Assembly (NCBI GenBank): GCA_026388185.1
Contig: JAPLKG010000008.1
Coordinates: 399,149-463,148, forward strand
Source: Candidatus Eisenbacteria bacterium
GTDB taxonomy: Bacteria > Eisenbacteria > RBG-16-71-46 > JAFGJU01
DNA length: 64,000 nucleotides
Direction of reading: 5' to 3'
In this document: one piece after another, positions 30,023 through 39,454 of the stretch
Numbering within the stretch: the first letter of the stretch is position 1
How the letters are laid out: the number at the start of each line of letters is the position of its first letter
Notes under the pieces: model-generated
Databases searched by the model: none
The model's input: only the letters and a program-made list of their open reading frames with translations
Told to the model about the DNA's origin: nothing
Made by a program: the position numbers and the translations under genes

Positions 30023-30385
30023 ATGCGGAAGTGGGTTGCAAAGTGTTCAGCGGCGCTTCTTACCGTGACTCTGATCGGACTTGCCGTTACCTGTATGCAG
30101 CTCGTCTCGCCGGCTCCGGCGTACTCGCGCCAGATTCCCAGTGGGTTTGAGGATGGCGGAGACCCGGATGGGCTTGATGGGGCTATGAGCGTGACGGACG
30201 AGTTTGGGGGGCTGGTATCTACACCTGAAGTTGGAGCTCAGGATGCGGGAGACCGTTCGGAAGTGGAGACAACTCTCGACTCTTCGTCTCGTTTTGTGTT
30301 CAGATTGTTTGGTGCGCGTGCGGAACAGAGAACGGTCGTATTGAAACTATGGTTCTCCATATCATCATTTGTTTTCACATTCTAG
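30023..30385 (+). CDS. Small exported protein of unknown function
   Basis: The protein has 120 residues. A clear signal peptide (positive start RKWVAK, hydrophobic ALLTVTLIGLAV, likely cleavage near PAYSR) is followed by an acidic Gly/Asp-rich middle and a hydrophobic C-terminus (LKLWFSISSFVFTF). No family is recognised. The ribosome site AAAAGGAGGGGGT is excellent. It ends 13 bases before the TPR/sigma-54 activator start and is probably in the same transcript, which suggests a regulatory or sensory link. Confidence 0.65.
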   Translation: MRKWVAKCSAALLTVTLIGLAVTCMQLVSPAPAYSRQIPSGFEDGGDPDGLDGAMSVTDEFGGLVSTPEVGAQDAGDRSEVETTLDSSSRFVFRLFGARAEQRTVVLKLWFSISSFVFTF

Positions 30386-30398
30386 CGGGGAGGTCTCC

Positions 30399-32873
30399 AT
30401 GGTTTTCGAAATTCCCGAGATCCAGAGAATAGAGGAGAGGCTGGAGACCCTTCGCAGTGTCTTCGGCAATCCAGAGTATTTGGAGCGTCTGGAGCTCTTG
30501 GCAGATCTGTACTTGAAGGAGGACGGCTACGAGCCGGCACTAGAGTATCTGGAAGAGATCTTGTCGGAAACTCACAGACTCCAGATCTCAGACAAGAAGA
30601 GAATGCGCCTGCAAATGAAAGTCATTGACTGTCTCCTGAAGCGCTCGCGTTGCACGGAGGCCCTGGAGAGGTGCAAGGCCATTGCCAACGAGCCGGGGAC
30701 ACTGGAGGATCAAGAGCTCAGAGCACAGCTCAATCTGCTTTTCTCCAAGACGTACTGGAAAACAGGTGACTATCCGAATGCGTTGAAAGCCAGTCAGGAT
30801 GCGATTCAAATATTCGAGAGTCTTGGAGACGAACGCGGCGTAGCTCAGTGTCAATGCTGGTTTGGCAATAGCTATCTCAGGCTCGGCCAATTCGAAGCAG
30901 CGAGAGAGCATTTTGAAGAAGGTCTGGCAGCGTACAGGAGGGTGAAGGACAAGGAAGGAATTGCTATCTGTCATAATAACCTCGGTGTCATGCACAAGAA
31001 CCGTGGTGAGTGGCAGCTTGCCACAGATCATCTGACAAAAGCGTTGGAGCTGGACAGAGAAACTGGCAACTACGGGAAGACCGCGCTGAGACTACTGAAC
31101 CTGGGCCTTGTGTACTACAAGACTGCTCAATGGAGAAGAGCTAAGGAATCAATGGAAGAGGCTCTCGCGATTGCGAGACGCATTGGTGACCAGCATACCT
31201 GCGCTGCCGCGTCCATCGGACTGGGCAATTGTCTCAGACTGCTCGGTGATTCCGAGGGAGCTGAAAGGTTCTACGTCCAAGCGACTTCTATAGCCGAGAA
31301 AGAAAACTTATTGCGCGAGCTCGCTCTGGCCCACGAGTTCTCGGGAGAGAATGAGTTGAGCCGAGGGAATCCACAGGCGGCGCTCAGCAAGTTGGACCGG
31401 GCTCTTGCAATTGCAGAGGGAATTGCCCGGGACGGAGACATCGTTGCCGAAGTGGAGCGACGACGGGCCGAAGCGTTCCTCGATCTCGGGGACATCAAGA
31501 AAGCGTTGAAGGCATCAATGCGATCCCTGAAGCTCTGTCGCCTGCTCGGTGACAGGTATGAAGAAGGTGCCGTTCTTTCCGTTATCGCCAGACTCAAGGA
31601 AAGAGCAGGGCACAGAAGAAGCGCGATGGTTGCGTTCGACGCCTCGGTCAAGTGCCGTGAATCAGTCAGAGACAGATACGGCTTGGCCTCTACGTTGCTT
31701 CACCTTGGCCGATTCCTGCGTGGCGAAGTCTGTTCGCAGGACAGGAGCCGAGAGGTGAAGCGTGTTCTCGCAAGGGCTGCGGGACTCCTTGCGGAAGTCG
31801 GAGCCGAGACGCTTCTCAGAGAAGCAGAGAGAGAACTGGAGTCCGCCTGGGACGAAAGTGCCAAAGCCTCTGCCCCAGTTGCTGCGAGGCGGGCCGGCCG
31901 TCTGACACCTTGTTCAATGCACGGAATCGTGACCTGCGATGCTTCCTTGATCAGCGTGATATGCTATGCGGAGCAATTGTGCAAGAGCGATGCTAGAGTA
32001 TTGATTCAAGGCGAAACCGGCGCCGGCAAGAACCTTCTAGCATACATCTTCAAGGCGCACGAGGAATCTGAAGGACGACCGTTTGTTGAGCTCAACTGTG
32101 CCACCATTCCTGCGGAATTGCTGGAGAGCGAACTATTCGGCTACGCAAAGGGCGCCTTCAGCGGAGCCAATTCCGACAAGAAGGGAATACTCGAAGAGGC
32201 AAATGGGGGCACGCTGTTTCTCAACGAAATCGCCGAAATGGACTTGAGGATGCAGGCCAAACTCCTGCAGTTTCTGGACGACGGCTCGTACAGACGCGTA
32301 GGTGATACACGTCTACGAAAACTCCACACTCGTATAGTCTGTGCGACGAACAAGGACCTTTGGCAGCAGGTTGAGAAGGGGGCGTACAGGCGCGACCTGT
32401 ACTTCAGACTTTCGCAAGCCGTGCTGAACATCACCCCGCTGCGTGACAGAAGCGAAGATGTGCCGGTGCTGGCGAGGCACTTTGTGGAGATGTACGGCCG
32501 GTTCTGCTCAAAGCAATTGCGCTTAGATCCCCCTGCGATCGAGTTGTTGCAGCGGCACAGTTGGCCCGGCAACGTGCGAGAGTTAAGAAGCAAGATCCAA
32601 CTCCTTGTGCTGGGGATGCCAACGGGAGCGGTCATCACCGCGGGCGACGTTGAGAAGGTGCTTAGCACCCCCGAAGCAGAAGCCCAGCCTAAGACTCTGG
32701 CAGACAAGATCGAACGGCTTAAGAGAACGGAGATAACCCGTGCTCTTACCAAGTTTGGTGGTAACAAGACCAAGGCCGCTCAAGTGCTTGGAATGAGTCG
32801 GCGTGGGCTCGTCAAGGTCGTGGAACGGATGGATACCTGTAGCGGGGGAACTGGTCCGGGCGTAGTCGCATAA
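30399..32873 (+). CDS. TPR-sensor sigma-54-dependent transcriptional activator
   Basis: The protein has 824 residues. About 490 residues of TPR repeats (for example AICHNNLGVMHKNRGEWQL) replace the usual receiver or GAF domain. An AAA+ sigma-54 activator domain follows, and then a Fis-type helix-turn-helix (KFGGNKTKAAQVLGMSRRG). Walker A is GETGAGKN (538-545). The sigma-54-contact loop is GAFSGA (585-590) instead of GAFTGA. Walker B reads LFLNEI, with asparagine at residue 609 where aspartate is normal. The protein may be a weak ATPase or a specialised activator. The ATG at 30399 follows GGGGAGGT. A second, canonical activator lies at 36829. Confidence 0.88.
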   Translation: MVFEIPEIQRIEERLETLRSVFGNPEYLERLELLADLYLKEDGYEPALEYLEEILSETHRLQISDKKRMRLQMKVIDCLLKRSRCTEALERCKAIANEPGTLEDQELRAQLNLLFSKTYWKTGDYPNALKASQDAIQIFESLGDERGVAQCQCWFGNSYLRLGQFEAAREHFEEGLAAYRRVKDKEGIAICHNNLGVMHKNRGEWQLATDHLTKALELDRETGNYGKTALRLLNLGLVYYKTAQWRRAKESMEEALAIARRIGDQHTCAAASIGLGNCLRLLGDSEGAERFYVQATSIAEKENLLRELALAHEFSGENELSRGNPQAALSKLDRALAIAEGIARDGDIVAEVERRRAEAFLDLGDIKKALKASMRSLKLCRLLGDRYEEGAVLSVIARLKERAGHRRSAMVAFDASVKCRESVRDRYGLASTLLHLGRFLRGEVCSQDRSREVKRVLARAAGLLAEVGAETLLREAERELESAWDESAKASAPVAARRAGRLTPCSMHGIVTCDASLISVICYAEQLCKSDARVLIQGETGAGKNLLAYIFKAHEESEGRPFVELNCATIPAELLESELFGYAKGAFSGANSDKKGILEEANGGTLFLNEIAEMDLRMQAKLLQFLDDGSYRRVGDTRLRKLHTRIVCATNKDLWQQVEKGAYRRDLYFRLSQAVLNITPLRDRSEDVPVLARHFVEMYGRFCSKQLRLDPPAIELLQRHSWPGNVRELRSKIQLLVLGMPTGAVITAGDVEKVLSTPEAEAQPKTLADKIERLKRTEITRALTKFGGNKTKAAQVLGMSRRGLVKVVERMDTCSGGTGPGVVA

Positions 32874-33265: not shown

Positions 33266-33294
33266 TTGCAACTGAACCAGGGAAATGGTATATT
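33266..33294 (+). promoter_or_regulatory. Candidate promoter for the conserved gene - GGHAWW peptide - HD-GYP group
   Basis: TTGCAA (33266-33271), 17 bases, TATATT (33289-33294). It lies 36 bases upstream of the start at 33330. Confidence 0.5.
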
Positions 33295-33329: not shown

Positions 33330-34070
33330 ATGGGGGTCAGTTTGGCTAACGTGCTGCAAAAGTGTGCCCTTGCGATTCGTGCGGAGAATGTTCTCCGCGG
33401 ACTTCGGGACATCTCCGCCGTTTCTGTCCTTGCTGACGATGGACAGATCACCGAGATTCACATCACAACCGCCAGCAACCGTTCTCCGAAGCAGCTCGTC
33501 AGGGACGTGGAGTCGGCTCTCGAGGCCGAGCTCGGGCTGCGGGTTGACCACCGGTGTATAAGTATTGCTCAGAAGAAGGAATGCGGGGAAGGCGCCGAGG
33601 TCCGGGAGCTGACACTCGCCGATTTTTGCGAGCCGGACAACAAGGAGCCTAGAGTCCGTTTCGGTAGCATCAACGTGAATTTTTCCGAGCTCAAAGGTCA
33701 TGCCAAGGTAGAGCTTTGCCTTGATACTCTTGAGTCTGCGGGCTTTGCTGACGGTTCATGCGATCAGCATGACGTCAATAGACTGATAGCGAGTGCTACG
33801 TTACAGTCCATGGGACAGTTTGTCGCCGAGGAGTGTTCGTTATCCTTGAGCGACGTGGAGGTAATACACCTAGGGCCAGACCAGGTAGTCGTTGCCACGG
33901 TCAAGTTCCTGTTGGGTAGGACCGACACAACTCTTGTGGGATCAAGCGTTGTGTCGCAGAATCTGCATCAGAGCGTTGTGTATGCCGTTCTGGATGCGGT
34001 CAACAGAGTATTCGGCAACCTGCGTCTTAAGGAACCGGTGGAGTATGAAGTAAGACCGACATCAACTTGA
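33330..34070 (+). CDS. Conserved protein of unknown function (SPKQLVRDVES domain)
   Basis: The protein has 246 residues. The first part (about residues 10-85) looks like a small alpha/beta domain: VSVLADDGQITEIHI, then SPKQLVRDVESALEAELGL, then VDHRCISIAQ. A second domain (about 105-240) ends GSSVVSQNLHQSVVYAVLDA. I recall similar uncharacterised proteins in thermophilic Firmicutes and Actinobacteria but cannot name a family. It has no signal or membrane segment. It is followed by the GGHAWW peptide ORF and an HD-GYP gene. The start is ATG at 33330, or TTG at 33342 after GGGGGT. Confidence 0.7.
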   Translation: MGVSLANVLQKCALAIRAENVLRGLRDISAVSVLADDGQITEIHITTASNRSPKQLVRDVESALEAELGLRVDHRCISIAQKKECGEGAEVRELTLADFCEPDNKEPRVRFGSINVNFSELKGHAKVELCLDTLESAGFADGSCDQHDVNRLIASATLQSMGQFVAEECSLSLSDVEVIHLGPDQVVVATVKFLLGRTDTTLVGSSVVSQNLHQSVVYAVLDAVNRVFGNLRLKEPVEYEVRPTST

Positions 34071-34075
34071 GGCTG

Positions 34076-34106
34076 GAGCGAAGCGGCGTAACTAGAGCGA
34101 AGCGGC
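34076..34106 (+). repeat. Direct repeat of GAGCGAAGCGGC
   Basis: Two exact 12-base copies (34076-34087 and 34095-34106), 19 bases apart start to start, just after the stop of the conserved gene and before the peptide ORF. Confidence 0.4.
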
Positions 34107-34128
34107 CATCCTACCTTTCATTTCGCCG

Positions 34129-34149
34129 GGCAGTTTCTTGACTGCCTTT
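34129..34149 (+). terminator. Weak hairpin with T-run before the peptide ORF
   Basis: GGCAG (34129-34133) and CTGCC (34142-34146) can pair and are followed by TTT. It is short, and might attenuate transcription into the peptide ORF. Confidence 0.25.
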
Positions 34150-34169
34150 AAGGAGGTGGCTGCGGGGTT

Positions 34170-34292
34170 ATGCCAAAAGTAATTCATTCTATTCTCGCCG
34201 CCCTGCTCACGTACACGATAAGTGGTGGGCACGCCTGGTGGGCCAATGGTGGGCACGCCTGGTGGATGAGTGGCGGACACGCTTGGTGGTAG
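34170..34292 (+). CDS. 40-residue peptide with three C-terminal GGHAWW repeats
   Basis: ATG to TAG encodes 40 residues: a short hydrophobic start (VIHSILAALLTYTI, residues 4-17), then GGHAWW at 19-24, 27-32 and 35-40 with AN and MS between them; the last Trp is the C-terminus. The DNA unit is 24 bases. Copies one and two are identical over the 18-base core, and copy three differs at three third-codon positions only. AAGGAGG lies 14 bases upstream, a little far. Double-Trp ends recall ComS/XIP peptide pheromones of streptococci, but this is analogy only. It lies between the conserved gene and an HD-GYP membrane protein in the same direction. Confidence 0.6.
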   Translation: MPKVIHSILAALLTYTISGGHAWWANGGHAWWMSGGHAWW

Positions 34293-34420
34293 TAGTCGTG
34301 GCCTCGGTTGATGTCGGTTCTTGATTTTGGGCTTATCTTGGTGGTATGAATGTGTATGCTCGGTAACGTTCTTGAGTCGACGATGAACACCACCCGCTAC
34401 GTATTGGAGAACGTGACCCC

Positions 34421-35746
34421 ATGAAGTCTGCGGTAGCGACCAAGAGAGCCAGCGGCGGGCACCAACGCATTACTTTCTGGCTTTTCTACGTGTGCGTCGT
34501 AGCGGCAGGCATTCTCGCGCTGGCGCTCGCCCCGGTGCCGCCTGGCACTGTCAGTTCGCTCACGTTCTGGCTTTGGATCGCGCTCTTAATCCTAGCTGGC
34601 ATCGCTCCCATTCCTCTGCCCGCTGGTGGCTCCATGACTGTTTCTTCCGCGATGAACTATGCGGGTATTGTCGTAATGGGGCCTATCCCCACCGCTTGGG
34701 CGGGCGTAATCAGTGCGATGTTTCTTCAGCTCGTCATACTCCGCAAGCCGGTAGTAAAGAGTATTTTCAATGCGGCTGTCCTGGCTTTGACCGTGCTTGT
34801 GGCTGGGTGGGTGTATCTGGCCCTTGGGGGGACGGTGGGTAAGCTGCACCTACCGGGTGACATGCTTTACCTCTTGATATCCGGCATTGCCTATTTCGTG
34901 GTCAATACGGGTTCCATCAGTCTTGTCATCGGCCTTGAACAAAGGCTGAATACTTTTCGTGTCTGGCAAGTCAACTTCATGTGGACGATTCTTCACCTCT
35001 TGGCCCTGCTCCCCTTCGGCGCATTGCTTGCTTTGGTATATCTCAGTGCGGGGATGTGGGCCATTCTCCTCTTCTTCGTCCCGCTCCTTCTCGCCAGATA
35101 CTCCTTCAAGCTCTACGTTGACATGCGGAGAGATCATTTTGATTTTGTGAAGGCACTCACGGGAGTCATCGACGAAATCGACCCATACACGCGGCAGCAT
35201 TCGCTACGTGTTGCGGAGTACTCTGTTCGTCTCGCGCGGGGGCTCGGATTGCGCGAGAGCGATGTTCGGACCATAGAGTATGCCGCTCTCGTGCACGATC
35301 TGGGCAAGGTTGACTTGAGGTACAGGGACATACTGGGGAAGCCGGGCGCGCTCTCGACGGACGAGAGGAAGACGCTGCGGAGGCATCCCGGCATTGGGGC
35401 CGACATAGTGACCAAGGTCAAATCCCTCAAGAGAGCTTCCGAGATGGTTCGCTCACATCATGAGAGACCGGACGGGAAGGGGTATCCATACGGCCTTGTC
35501 GATCAAGACGTTCCCCTGGGTGCGCGGATCCTAAACGTGGCAGACGCCTTCGACGCGATGACGTCCGACCGTCCGTACAGGCCGGCCCTGACTCTTGAGC
35601 AGGCGGTCGCAGAAGTCAAGCGCTGCTGCGATACCCAGTTTGACAAGAGAGTTGCGGGTTGTCTCGTGAGAATGTACGAGGCGGGGCAGTTCGACGTGTA
35701 CAGAGAAGGGCGTGAGGAAACGCACTCCATGAGGGCCGCGGGCTAG
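34421..35746 (+). CDS. Membrane-anchored HD-GYP domain protein
   Basis: The protein has 441 residues. Six or seven N-terminal membrane helices (about residues 20-225) precede an HD domain with HSLRVAEYSVRLARGLGL, VHDLGKVDLR and the GYP-type motif HHERPDGKGYPYGL, then DAFDAMTSDRPYR. HD-GYP proteins hydrolyse cyclic di-GMP or related dinucleotides; the metal-binding residues look complete. The membrane part resembles sensory modules. With a small peptide ORF just upstream it could be a receptor, but that is inference. The ATG follows GGAG at 12 bases. purM starts 22 bases after the stop. Confidence 0.87.
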   Translation: MKSAVATKRASGGHQRITFWLFYVCVVAAGILALALAPVPPGTVSSLTFWLWIALLILAGIAPIPLPAGGSMTVSSAMNYAGIVVMGPIPTAWAGVISAMFLQLVILRKPVVKSIFNAAVLALTVLVAGWVYLALGGTVGKLHLPGDMLYLLISGIAYFVVNTGSISLVIGLEQRLNTFRVWQVNFMWTILHLLALLPFGALLALVYLSAGMWAILLFFVPLLLARYSFKLYVDMRRDHFDFVKALTGVIDEIDPYTRQHSLRVAEYSVRLARGLGLRESDVRTIEYAALVHDLGKVDLRYRDILGKPGALSTDERKTLRRHPGIGADIVTKVKSLKRASEMVRSHHERPDGKGYPYGLVDQDVPLGARILNVADAFDAMTSDRPYRPALTLEQAVAEVKRCCDTQFDKRVAGCLVRMYEAGQFDVYREGREETHSMRAAG

Positions 35747-35768: not shown

Positions 35769-36791
35769 TTGAAGTACAAGGACGCCGGAGTTGACATAGA
35801 CGCAGCCAACGCTGCCCTGGAACGAATCAAAGCCCTCGTTCGCTCCACCTACACCAAAGGTGTGTCCAGCGAACCTGGGCTTTTTGCCGGCGCCTACTCG
35901 TTGGCTTCGGCAGGCATTAGAGATCCGCTTCTCCTCTCCAGCATGGACGGCGTTGGGACGAAGCTCAAGATTGCGTTTGCCGCGCGGAAGTTCAAGTCCG
36001 TCGGCACCGACATCGTGTCTCACTGCTGTAACGACGTGCTCGTGCACGCGGCCCAGCCGATCTTTTTCTTAGACTACATCGGGATTGACAAGATAGAAGT
36101 CACGGTCCTGGAGGAGTTGGTTTCGGGGATGGCGGAAGAGTGCATCAACTGGGGCTGTGCGCTGATAGGCGGGGAGACGGCGGAAATGCCGGGCTTCTAC
36201 AACAAAGGCGAGTTCGATGTCGTGGGCTGCGCCGTCGGGGTCGTCGAGAAAAGTGACTTCGTAGACGGCGCCGACATTCGGAGTGGCGACGTCCTGATCG
36301 GACTACCATCCACCGGACTTCACACCAATGGCTTTTCGCTGGCAAGGAAGATCCTCTTCGAGAAGAAGAACTTTTCAGTTGAGGACTCACTTCCGGAGCT
36401 AGGTTGTACCATCGAAGAGGCTCTTCTTGTTCCTCACCGGTCGTATCTCCGACCCGTTCGCCTTCTTCTTGCAGGGGGATGGGTCAGGGGTATGGCTCAC
36501 ATCACCGGTGGGGGATTCTTCGACAACATCACGCGAATTCTCCCCGACGGGCTTCAGGTTCACATTCGCAAGGGGACGTGGCCCATTCTGCCGGTGTTCG
36601 GCCTGCTCAGACGATGGGGGGAGATGGAAGACGAGGAAGCGTTCAGGACTTTCAACATGGGCGTTGGGTTCGTCGTATTTGTGCGTGAGAAAGATGTGAG
36701 TTCGGCTGTCAACGAGCTTCTCGCCAACGACGAGAAGGCGTTTGTCATCGGCGAGGTAAGGAGCGGCAAGAAAGGTGTTCACGTAGTTTAG
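35769..36791 (+). CDS. purM: Phosphoribosylformylglycinamidine cyclo-ligase (AIR synthase)
   Basis: The protein has 340 residues. Family signatures are KYKDAGVDIDAAN at the N-terminus, SSMDGVGTKLKIAF, LIGGETAEMPGFY, LPSTGLHTNGFSLAR and HITGGGFFDNI. The enzyme closes the imidazole ring, the fifth step of purine synthesis. It stands apart from the purB-L-Q-F cluster at 50.8 kb, between the HD-GYP gene and a sigma-54 activator. The start is TTG after GGGTTGGG; no nearby ATG fits. Confidence 0.94.
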   Translation: MKYKDAGVDIDAANAALERIKALVRSTYTKGVSSEPGLFAGAYSLASAGIRDPLLLSSMDGVGTKLKIAFAARKFKSVGTDIVSHCCNDVLVHAAQPIFFLDYIGIDKIEVTVLEELVSGMAEECINWGCALIGGETAEMPGFYNKGEFDVVGCAVGVVEKSDFVDGADIRSGDVLIGLPSTGLHTNGFSLARKILFEKKNFSVEDSLPELGCTIEEALLVPHRSYLRPVRLLLAGGWVRGMAHITGGGFFDNITRILPDGLQVHIRKGTWPILPVFGLLRRWGEMEDEEAFRTFNMGVGFVVFVREKDVSSAVNELLANDEKAFVIGEVRSGKKGVHVV

Positions 36792-39253: not shown

Positions 39254-39454
39254 ATGAAGGGTGCTGTTGTGGTGCTTTTGTTGGTGCTGCTCTTGGTGCC
39301 CTGTGTTGCGAATGCGGTGGACGCGGTCGGGTGTGATGTGTGGCTGGAGAGTGGGAACGTGGTCATGTGGGCTGCGTGTCACGTTGGTGAGTGGCTCCGG
39401 TTCAACGAGGCGACGGATGACCTGCTGTGGGAGGTTGGGTACGTCGGGCCGTAG
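39254..39454 (+). CDS. Small exported protein of unknown function
   Basis: The protein has 66 residues. A textbook signal peptide (GAVVVLLLVLLLVPCVANA) is followed by about 45 residues with two cysteines and several tryptophans (GCDVWLESGNVVMWAACHVG). No family is recognised. It starts 16 bases after the previous gene and shares its G/T-rich coding strand. A strong hairpin follows its stop, so these two genes probably form one short operon. Confidence 0.6.
   Translation: MKGAVVVLLLVLLLVPCVANAVDAVGCDVWLESGNVVMWAACHVGEWLRFNEATDDLLWEVGYVGP

Follow-up and report, generated by a model that had tools for sequence, protein, structure and literature searches.

A micropeptide gene enclosed in a conserved RNA domain beside a MASE9-HD-GYP gene in Candidatus Eisenbacteria

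The short open reading frame (ORF) at 34170–34292 of the window, as the whole analysed stretch of 64,000 nt from a Candidatus Eisenbacteria genome is called here, is by comparison with its relatives a coding gene on the + strand that was previously unannotated. It belongs to a family of Trp-tailed micropeptides and is linked to a MASE9-HD-GYP gene directly downstream. It lies within a conserved, covarying RNA domain, and in the predicted folds its Shine-Dalgarno (SD) sequence is paired. The initial annotation of the ORF is correct in its observation but understates what is present; it missed the enclosing RNA domain, in which the ribosome-binding site is hidden. The preferred reading, whose chances of being right or wrong we put about level, is that of an RNA-gated micropeptide acting on the adjacent MASE9-HD-GYP cyclic-di-GMP (c-di-GMP) phosphodiesterase sensor. 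Peptide and sensor may represent a new kind of control unit. The gene probably escaped detection because gene finders skip such small ORFs and RNA searches skip coding regions.

The micropeptide gene and its relatives

The genes of the locus are as follows.
33266–33294, + strand: possible sigma-70-type operon promoter TTGCAA-17-TATATT, weak (consensus scan, 2 found against 1.2 expected)
33330–34070, + strand: u246, conserved 246-residue protein, adjoining the ORF upstream; its last codons are the 5' arm of helix P0
34170–34292, + strand: micropeptide gene, 40 residues with three C-terminal GGHAWW units; short orthologous ORFs in 24 genomes, synonymous pattern
34421–35746, + strand: MASE9-HD-GYP gene (PF20972, PF13487; AlphaFold2 model, Foldseek)
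35769–36791, + strand: purM (TIGR00878, E = 7e-111), order kept in the named relatives

The + strand translation of 34170–34292 is MPKVIHSILAALLTYTISGGHAWWANGGHAWWMSGGHAWW, with the third GGHAWW abutting the stop codon and AAGGAGG upstream at 34150–34156. When the sequence was re-read and submitted to Tandem Repeats Finder, the 40-residue ORF, the triple GGHAWW, the 24-base unit (three times at 34217–34289) and the third-position differences were all exactly as first described. Copies 1 and 2 are GGTGGGCACGCCTGGTGG and copy 3 is GGCGGACACGCTTGGTGG. The three changes in copy 3 (GGT to GGC, GGG to GGA, and GCC to GCT) are all synonymous; by our own arithmetic, a single change in the unit is silent in 10 of 54 cases, so three out of three would be expected by chance with a probability of about 0.006. 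The ORF is the sole copy in its genome (2.6 Mb assembly, 98% complete).

The comparison covered 47 genomes of this phylum, counting the window's own, and all named relatives are Candidatus Eisenbacteria MAGs. The slot between the u246 and HD-GYP genes was read in every relative with that layout. The search for small ORFs upstream of HD-GYP genes that the initial annotation had proposed revealed a short ORF in 24 of the 47 genomes, from five of the families labelled f1 to f11, and the same strong GGAGGTG site precedes all 24. The window genome belongs to f1, together with G002 (peptide MPKLIYTIIAALLSYITVSGGQSNWW) and G001 (MPKFIYTALAALISLAVSGGH, ending at a contig end). The peptides of f2, f3, and f11 are MEFLQLVVLATLLKWITVNSRGHW, LIALWIAAIYVVLNGGRAGW (start codon TTG), and MSFINLDLLELVGVLLIGFYRAGWGPGGP, respectively. 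Family f8, with 18 genomes, has peptides of 16–18 residues, such as MDLLIEIVELFGKAGW, VDLILELVTFFGRAGW, and MDDVVKVIITFLGKGGW.

Lengths in the family range from 16 to 40 residues, and every complete member has the Trp tail. The common plan is a hydrophobic or amphipathic stretch followed by a C-terminal (K/R/H/Q)-x-x-W-like tail, in which a basic or polar residue, mostly after Gly, stands shortly before Trp (e.g., MDLLIEIVELFGKAGW, SGGQSNWW, GGRAGW). The terminal Trp codon is directly before the stop codon in all complete members except G024, where GPGGP is added after Trp. C-terminal WW occurs in the window genome and G002 only, with a single Trp in f2, f3, f8, and f11. The GGHAWW repeats stand for the window genome and not as a family trait: the triplication is peculiar to it among the slots read, and the relatives have one C-terminal motif (GGQSNWW, GGRAGW, GKAGW). 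Judged by composition only, peptides of f1, f2, and f3 resemble a short signal or membrane helix, those of f1 with Lys3 and a hydrophobic N-terminus; f8 peptides are mostly acidic, amphipathic, too short for a classical signal, and have no hydrophobic N-terminus.

Codon-level conservation was compared on both strands in the 18 members of f8. The sense frame on the + strand is the most synonymous, with 424 synonymous to 257 non-synonymous single-difference codons; the remaining + strand frames gave 186:433 and 101:601, and the opposite-strand frames 150:531, 365:337, and 32:587. The warning given at the outset, that an opposite-strand frame shares the third positions, was apt, as exactly this frame is the nearest competitor (365:337). 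The relatives settle the strand question: in 24 genomes the + strand retains SD, start, stop, and frame, and no antisense ORF is conserved. A coding gene on the strand originally claimed thus agrees with the relatives, and the antisense reading, with its lower synonymous ratio, was rejected. Trp is kept in 18/18 members of f8, all three stop codons are used, and Lys and Arg replace each other via two-base changes.

RNA domain around the ORF

The elements of the RNA domain in the window are listed below.
34054–34073, + strand: P0 5' arm at the u246 end (GACCGACATCAAC at 34054–34066, GAGGC at 34069–34073)
34077–34085, + strand: motif AGCGNAGCG, copy 1, invariant but for N in 23 aligned genomes
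34085–34092, + strand: P1 5' strand GGCGTAAC, pairing with 34167–34174; clear in three f1 genomes, weaker elsewhere
34096–34104, + strand: motif AGCGNAGCG, copy 2, invariant but for N in 23 aligned genomes
34102–34110, + strand: P2 5' strand GCGGCCATC, pairing with 34155–34163 in the SD region (swap test, covariation)
34129–34146, + strand: P3 hairpin GGCAGT-TTCTTG-ACTGCC between the P2 strands; 6/6 pairs with changes on both sides
34150–34163, + strand: SD AAGGAGG (34150–34156) and P2 3' strand GGTGGCTGC (34155–34163); GGAGGTG invariant
34167–34174, + strand: P1 3' strand GTTATGCC, including the start codon
34301–34319, + strand: P0 3' arm between the ORF and the HD-GYP gene (GCCTC at 34301–34305, GTTGATGTCGGTT at 34307–34319)

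The motif AGCGNAGCG is present twice before every ORF, G024 and G037 having variant copies, and the pair is unique within the window (0.00 expected). Both motifs with GGAGGTG were found once each in 22 Eisenbacteria genomes, always at this locus (22 of 385 genomes searched), and in 0 of 338 other bacterial genomes searched.

Because a plain MAFFT alignment misplaces the helix arms, pairing was assessed by partner-swap tests and a covariance model. In the alignment-free swap test of P2, cognate strands gave -18.9 kcal/mol and permuted strands -16.4 +/- 0.44 kcal/mol (0/20000), with p = 0.016 for f8 alone. P1 is formed in f1 by GGCGUAAC, flanking copy 1, and GUUAUGCC, the latter with AUG within it; the P1 swap test gave p = 0.0014 across all genomes and about 0.07 within f8, so that P1 appears secure in f1 only and weak outside it. 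With the f8-based covariance model, all 24 loci were recovered; the window scores 27 bits and G024 a weak 14.8. In the fitted alignment A8, 12 of 20 pairs have changes on both sides and covariation is 0.269, against 0.149 +/- 0.012 when shuffled and at most 0.089 with slid partners; A8 was fitted to its covariance model and therefore favours the model's structure, and f8 is the predominant family in the alignments. In 23/23 genomes, the minimum free energy (MFE) fold pairs the SD, and the folding z-score of the window domain is -4.67.

The domain is closed by helix P0, which joins GAGACCGACATC, where u246 ends, to its complement GATGTCGGTCTC, about 15–55 bases past the ORF stop, and so encloses the whole ORF. 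The complement is present in 23/23 genomes and the helix in the MFE fold of 23/23 domains. Its eleven pairs are anchored on invariant CCG/CGG, and 92% of them are formed over 20 distinct rows; one position shows A-U, G-C, U-A, and G-U. Covariation is 0.278 (0.162 shuffled, at most 0.097 slid), a value reached by at most 1 of 500 shuffles. Within this arm u246 keeps an AGA codon; of 637 Arg codons counted in the f8 and f11 HD-GYP genes, 1 is AGA. In G016, G030, G032, and G046, the arm is kept although the usual u246 C-terminus is no longer encoded. The rare codon and the arm outlasting the C-terminus show selection acting on nucleic acid, and G-U pairs and variable spacing favour RNA over a DNA inverted repeat.

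Neither 12 kb of the window nor 34 kb surrounding the locus in relatives gave an Rfam match at gathering score; permissive thresholds gave sub-threshold mir-598 and CcsR1 only, both outside the element. No Rfam, Pfam, or NCBIfam family matches the element or the peptide, and nothing on this element was found in the open-access literature. Of three other readings of the twin motif, one is disfavoured and two were rejected. A DNA-binding site is disfavoured by the spacing of 17 to 27 nt and by flanks that covary as RNA with G-U pairs. A CsrA-type site does not fit a motif whose N is mostly A, nor a GGA after copy 2 that is not kept in f1. A genome-wide regulon is at odds with one element per genome, always here, the look-alikes in two genomes being 23-nt minigene arrays. 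These arrays (L180–L185 in G044 and G045, nzgw208/nzgw207; e.g., G044:C297:14063-14252) are tandem units ATGAGCG[A/C]AGCGAAGAGGCTCAC before unrelated genes. Each unit is a whole minigene, M S E A K R L T, whose stop TGA overlaps the next ATG; AGCGAAGCG is in common with the element, the structure is not.

Neighbouring genes and the predicted sensor

As originally stated, the neighbours have the same direction as the ORF; they are the 246-residue protein upstream and the MASE9-HD-GYP protein downstream. The gene order in the named relatives is pfkB, u246, peptide, HD-GYP, purM, and NtrC-type activator. The peptide ORF accompanies every syntenic HD-GYP gene, directly upstream of it, and is absent from the seven genomes in which u246 runs directly into purM. 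At six f4 loci, a related HD-GYP gene follows pfkB after a sigma-54-like TGGCAC-N5-TGC site, with no peptide. As these HD-GYP genes are non-syntenic and no peptide is found where u246 meets purM, the ORF tracks the syntenic HD-GYP gene and not u246. Relatives that keep the HD-GYP gene and lack the ORF, named initially as evidence that would count against the peptide, are confined to these non-syntenic f4 homologues. The sigma-54-like promoter before the HD-GYP gene of the f4 loci (L044–L050) is, for example, TGGCACACTCCGTGC, and an NtrC-type activator gene was found elsewhere in the neighbourhood. A TPR array fused to a sigma-54 activator domain is encoded at 30369–32873 of the window between pfkB and u246; it is also present in G002 and absent in most relatives.

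The HD-GYP protein has the domains MASE9 (PF20972) and HD_5 (PF13487) in Pfam, and its motif residues H292 D293 and G354 Y355 P356 are invariant; by domain and motif it is a predicted c-di-GMP phosphodiesterase. The gene of G002 includes a masked stretch. The AlphaFold2 model has a mean pLDDT of 79 and matches HD-GYP structures in Foldseek. Its membrane part (residues about 13–215) matches the ECF S components RibU (5kbw) and FolT (5d0y), with TM by target about 0.6–0.75 and E of 0.008–0.14, and the MASE9 membrane domain is thus predicted to have an ECF-transporter S-component-like fold. S components are known for binding small extracellular ligands, so the MASE9 part would by its fold be a sensor domain. 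For MASE9 sensors generally, the modelled fold suggests binding of a small molecule or peptide tail from outside.

The u246 gene is kept in 36 of 59 genomes. Its product has no Pfam or NCBIfam match, and no relatives were found in viral contigs. In the model, the C-terminal half resembles the LeuA regulatory domain, beside a separate N-terminal alpha/beta domain. A dsRNA-binding role indicated by Foldseek hits was set aside for poor superposition and low TM.

Proposed mechanism and alternatives

The mechanism proposed starts from the predicted folds, in which P0 closes the domain around the ORF, P2 hides the SD and, in the window's family, P1 hides the start codon. Opening would probably take place at the invariant twin AGCGNAGCG, whose two copies each adjoin a hiding strand on its 5' side, through a protein, a ligand, or a ribosome coming off the gene upstream. 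The micropeptide would be made only once the RNA opens. Its hydrophobic or amphipathic helix would then be placed at the membrane, and the C-terminal basic-x-x-Trp tail, triplicated in the window genome, would be offered to the S-component-like domain of the neighbouring MASE9-HD-GYP protein, and c-di-GMP breakdown would thereby be set. The trigger, the membrane placement, the binding, and the effect on c-di-GMP are inferred here; the choice of the HD-GYP protein as target rests on its S-component pocket, its strict linkage to the peptide gene, and the conservation of Trp at the C-terminus of the peptide. Points against the mechanism are the difference between peptides of f1–f3 and f8, the f4 HD-GYP relatives with no peptide, and the GPGGP extension in G024.

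We know of no other peptide dedicated to a MASE9/S-component-type c-di-GMP enzyme; control of the HD-GYP sensor by this one, if true, would make it the first known to us and provide an orphan sensor domain with a ligand. The RNA may represent a new class, and its trigger can be searched for in vitro without culturing the organism. A more tentative proposal, which we consider possible and rather doubtful, is a self-contained loop. In it, an RNA of a new class, built on the invariant twin AGCGNAGCG and perhaps responsive to c-di-GMP or another nucleotide messenger, would enclose and gate a Trp-tailed micropeptide serving as dedicated ligand of an S-component-fold c-di-GMP phosphodiesterase. If true, RNA switch, peptide, and receptor would form one feedback loop in an uncultured phylum.

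A secreted pheromone, as the initial suggestion of a signalling peptide implies, is an unlikely alternative, in which the C-terminal unit would be cleaved, exported, and sensed by the HD-GYP protein, with three GGHAWW as a multi-dose precursor like tandem Phr. The hydrophobic N-terminus with Lys3 in f1, the C-terminal and triplicated motif, and the S-component-like receptor domain would suit it. Internal duplication of the pheromone unit is documented for some precursors of Rap-Phr systems (PMC11343458; see also PMC5199041). These tandem precursors are the nearest analogues for the triplication, alike in a short precursor with a C-terminal unit; here, however, there is no RRNPPA receptor partner, f8 members of 16–18 residues have no recognisable export signal, and the unit is conserved between genera with a C-terminus that is not diversifying. 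The repeats are also confined to one genome, and no exporter, processing protease, or import system was recognised among the immediate neighbours. No TPR receptor gene of RRNPPA type is adjacent; the TPR-sigma-54 activator is two genes upstream in the window and G002, where most relatives have pfkB. The comparison with ComS/XIP drawn at first survives as an analogy only, in the C-terminal WW of f1: the neighbours are u246, HD-GYP, purM, and sigma-54 activators, with no adjacent Rgg/ComR-type receptor gene, and Trp is mostly single, in a different phylum and context.

A leader or arrest peptide is likewise improbable and is placed second among the alternatives. Here the terminal Trp or the stop codon would arrest the translating ribosome, which would alter both the folding of the RNA and how strongly the HD-GYP gene downstream is expressed. 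In its favour are the invariant Trp codon, directly preceding the stop in every complete member apart from G024, and the P0 3' arm between the ORF and the HD-GYP gene, and trp leader peptides contain WW pairs, of which those here are reminiscent. Yet the consistently hidden SD is the ORF's own, which is unusual for a leader, the HD-GYP start is outside the structured domain, and the spacer between ORF and HD-GYP gene has no terminator as an attenuator would need. Triplication makes little sense with a single stall site, and selection extends beyond Trp codons to Gly-Lys/Arg-Ala-Gly and the hydrophobic pattern, for which a plain trp-type attenuator was rejected.

Third is a type I toxin-like mRNA, quite improbable, whose membrane-active peptide would be silenced by mRNA folding and an undetected antisense RNA. 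A small hydrophobic or amphipathic peptide with an SD occluded in the predicted fold and long-range 5'–3' pairing is present as in aapA mRNAs, and AapA3, with hidden SD and long-distance 5'/3' pairing around the ORF (PMC6733600), is the nearest known system in RNA logic. AapA3/IsoA3 and Hok/Sok share with the locus the short membrane-type ORF, the hidden SD, and 5' and 3' RNA paired around the ORF. They differ in that no antisense RNA was found here (no antisense promoter over the ORF in a consensus scan and no conserved antisense ORF). The gene here is a single copy, strictly syntenic across the phylum, in a gene row tied to one c-di-GMP enzyme; its C-terminal Trp tail is specific and conserved, and the closing arm is within the upstream gene. 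A structured non-coding RNA with an incidental ORF would explain the strong RNA conservation and the overlap of P1 with the start codon in the window, and is most improbable given the frame-specific synonymous pattern and the conserved start, stop, and SD.

For the RNA-gated micropeptide itself, further known systems may be compared. Translation-controlling riboswitches are alike in conserved covarying structure, invariant motifs, and hidden SD, and the predicted control by SD pairing makes the element a candidate orphan riboswitch-like class; it differs in that the domain closes around the regulated ORF, with no ligand known and no Rfam match. RNAIII of Staphylococcus likewise combines a structured RNA with a micropeptide, in its case the leaderless and amphipathic delta-haemolysin; phylum, sequence, and context differ, and no trans-acting role is known here. 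MgrB is a small membrane protein that tunes the sensor enzyme PhoQ. The peptide here is similarly tiny and hydrophobic and would, as proposed, act on the membrane sensor next to it; the target in this case would be an S-component-like HD-GYP phosphodiesterase. Elsewhere in the window, at 39254–39454, a short ORF has a VVLLLVLLLV stretch derived from a 12-base tandem repeat (39260–39299).
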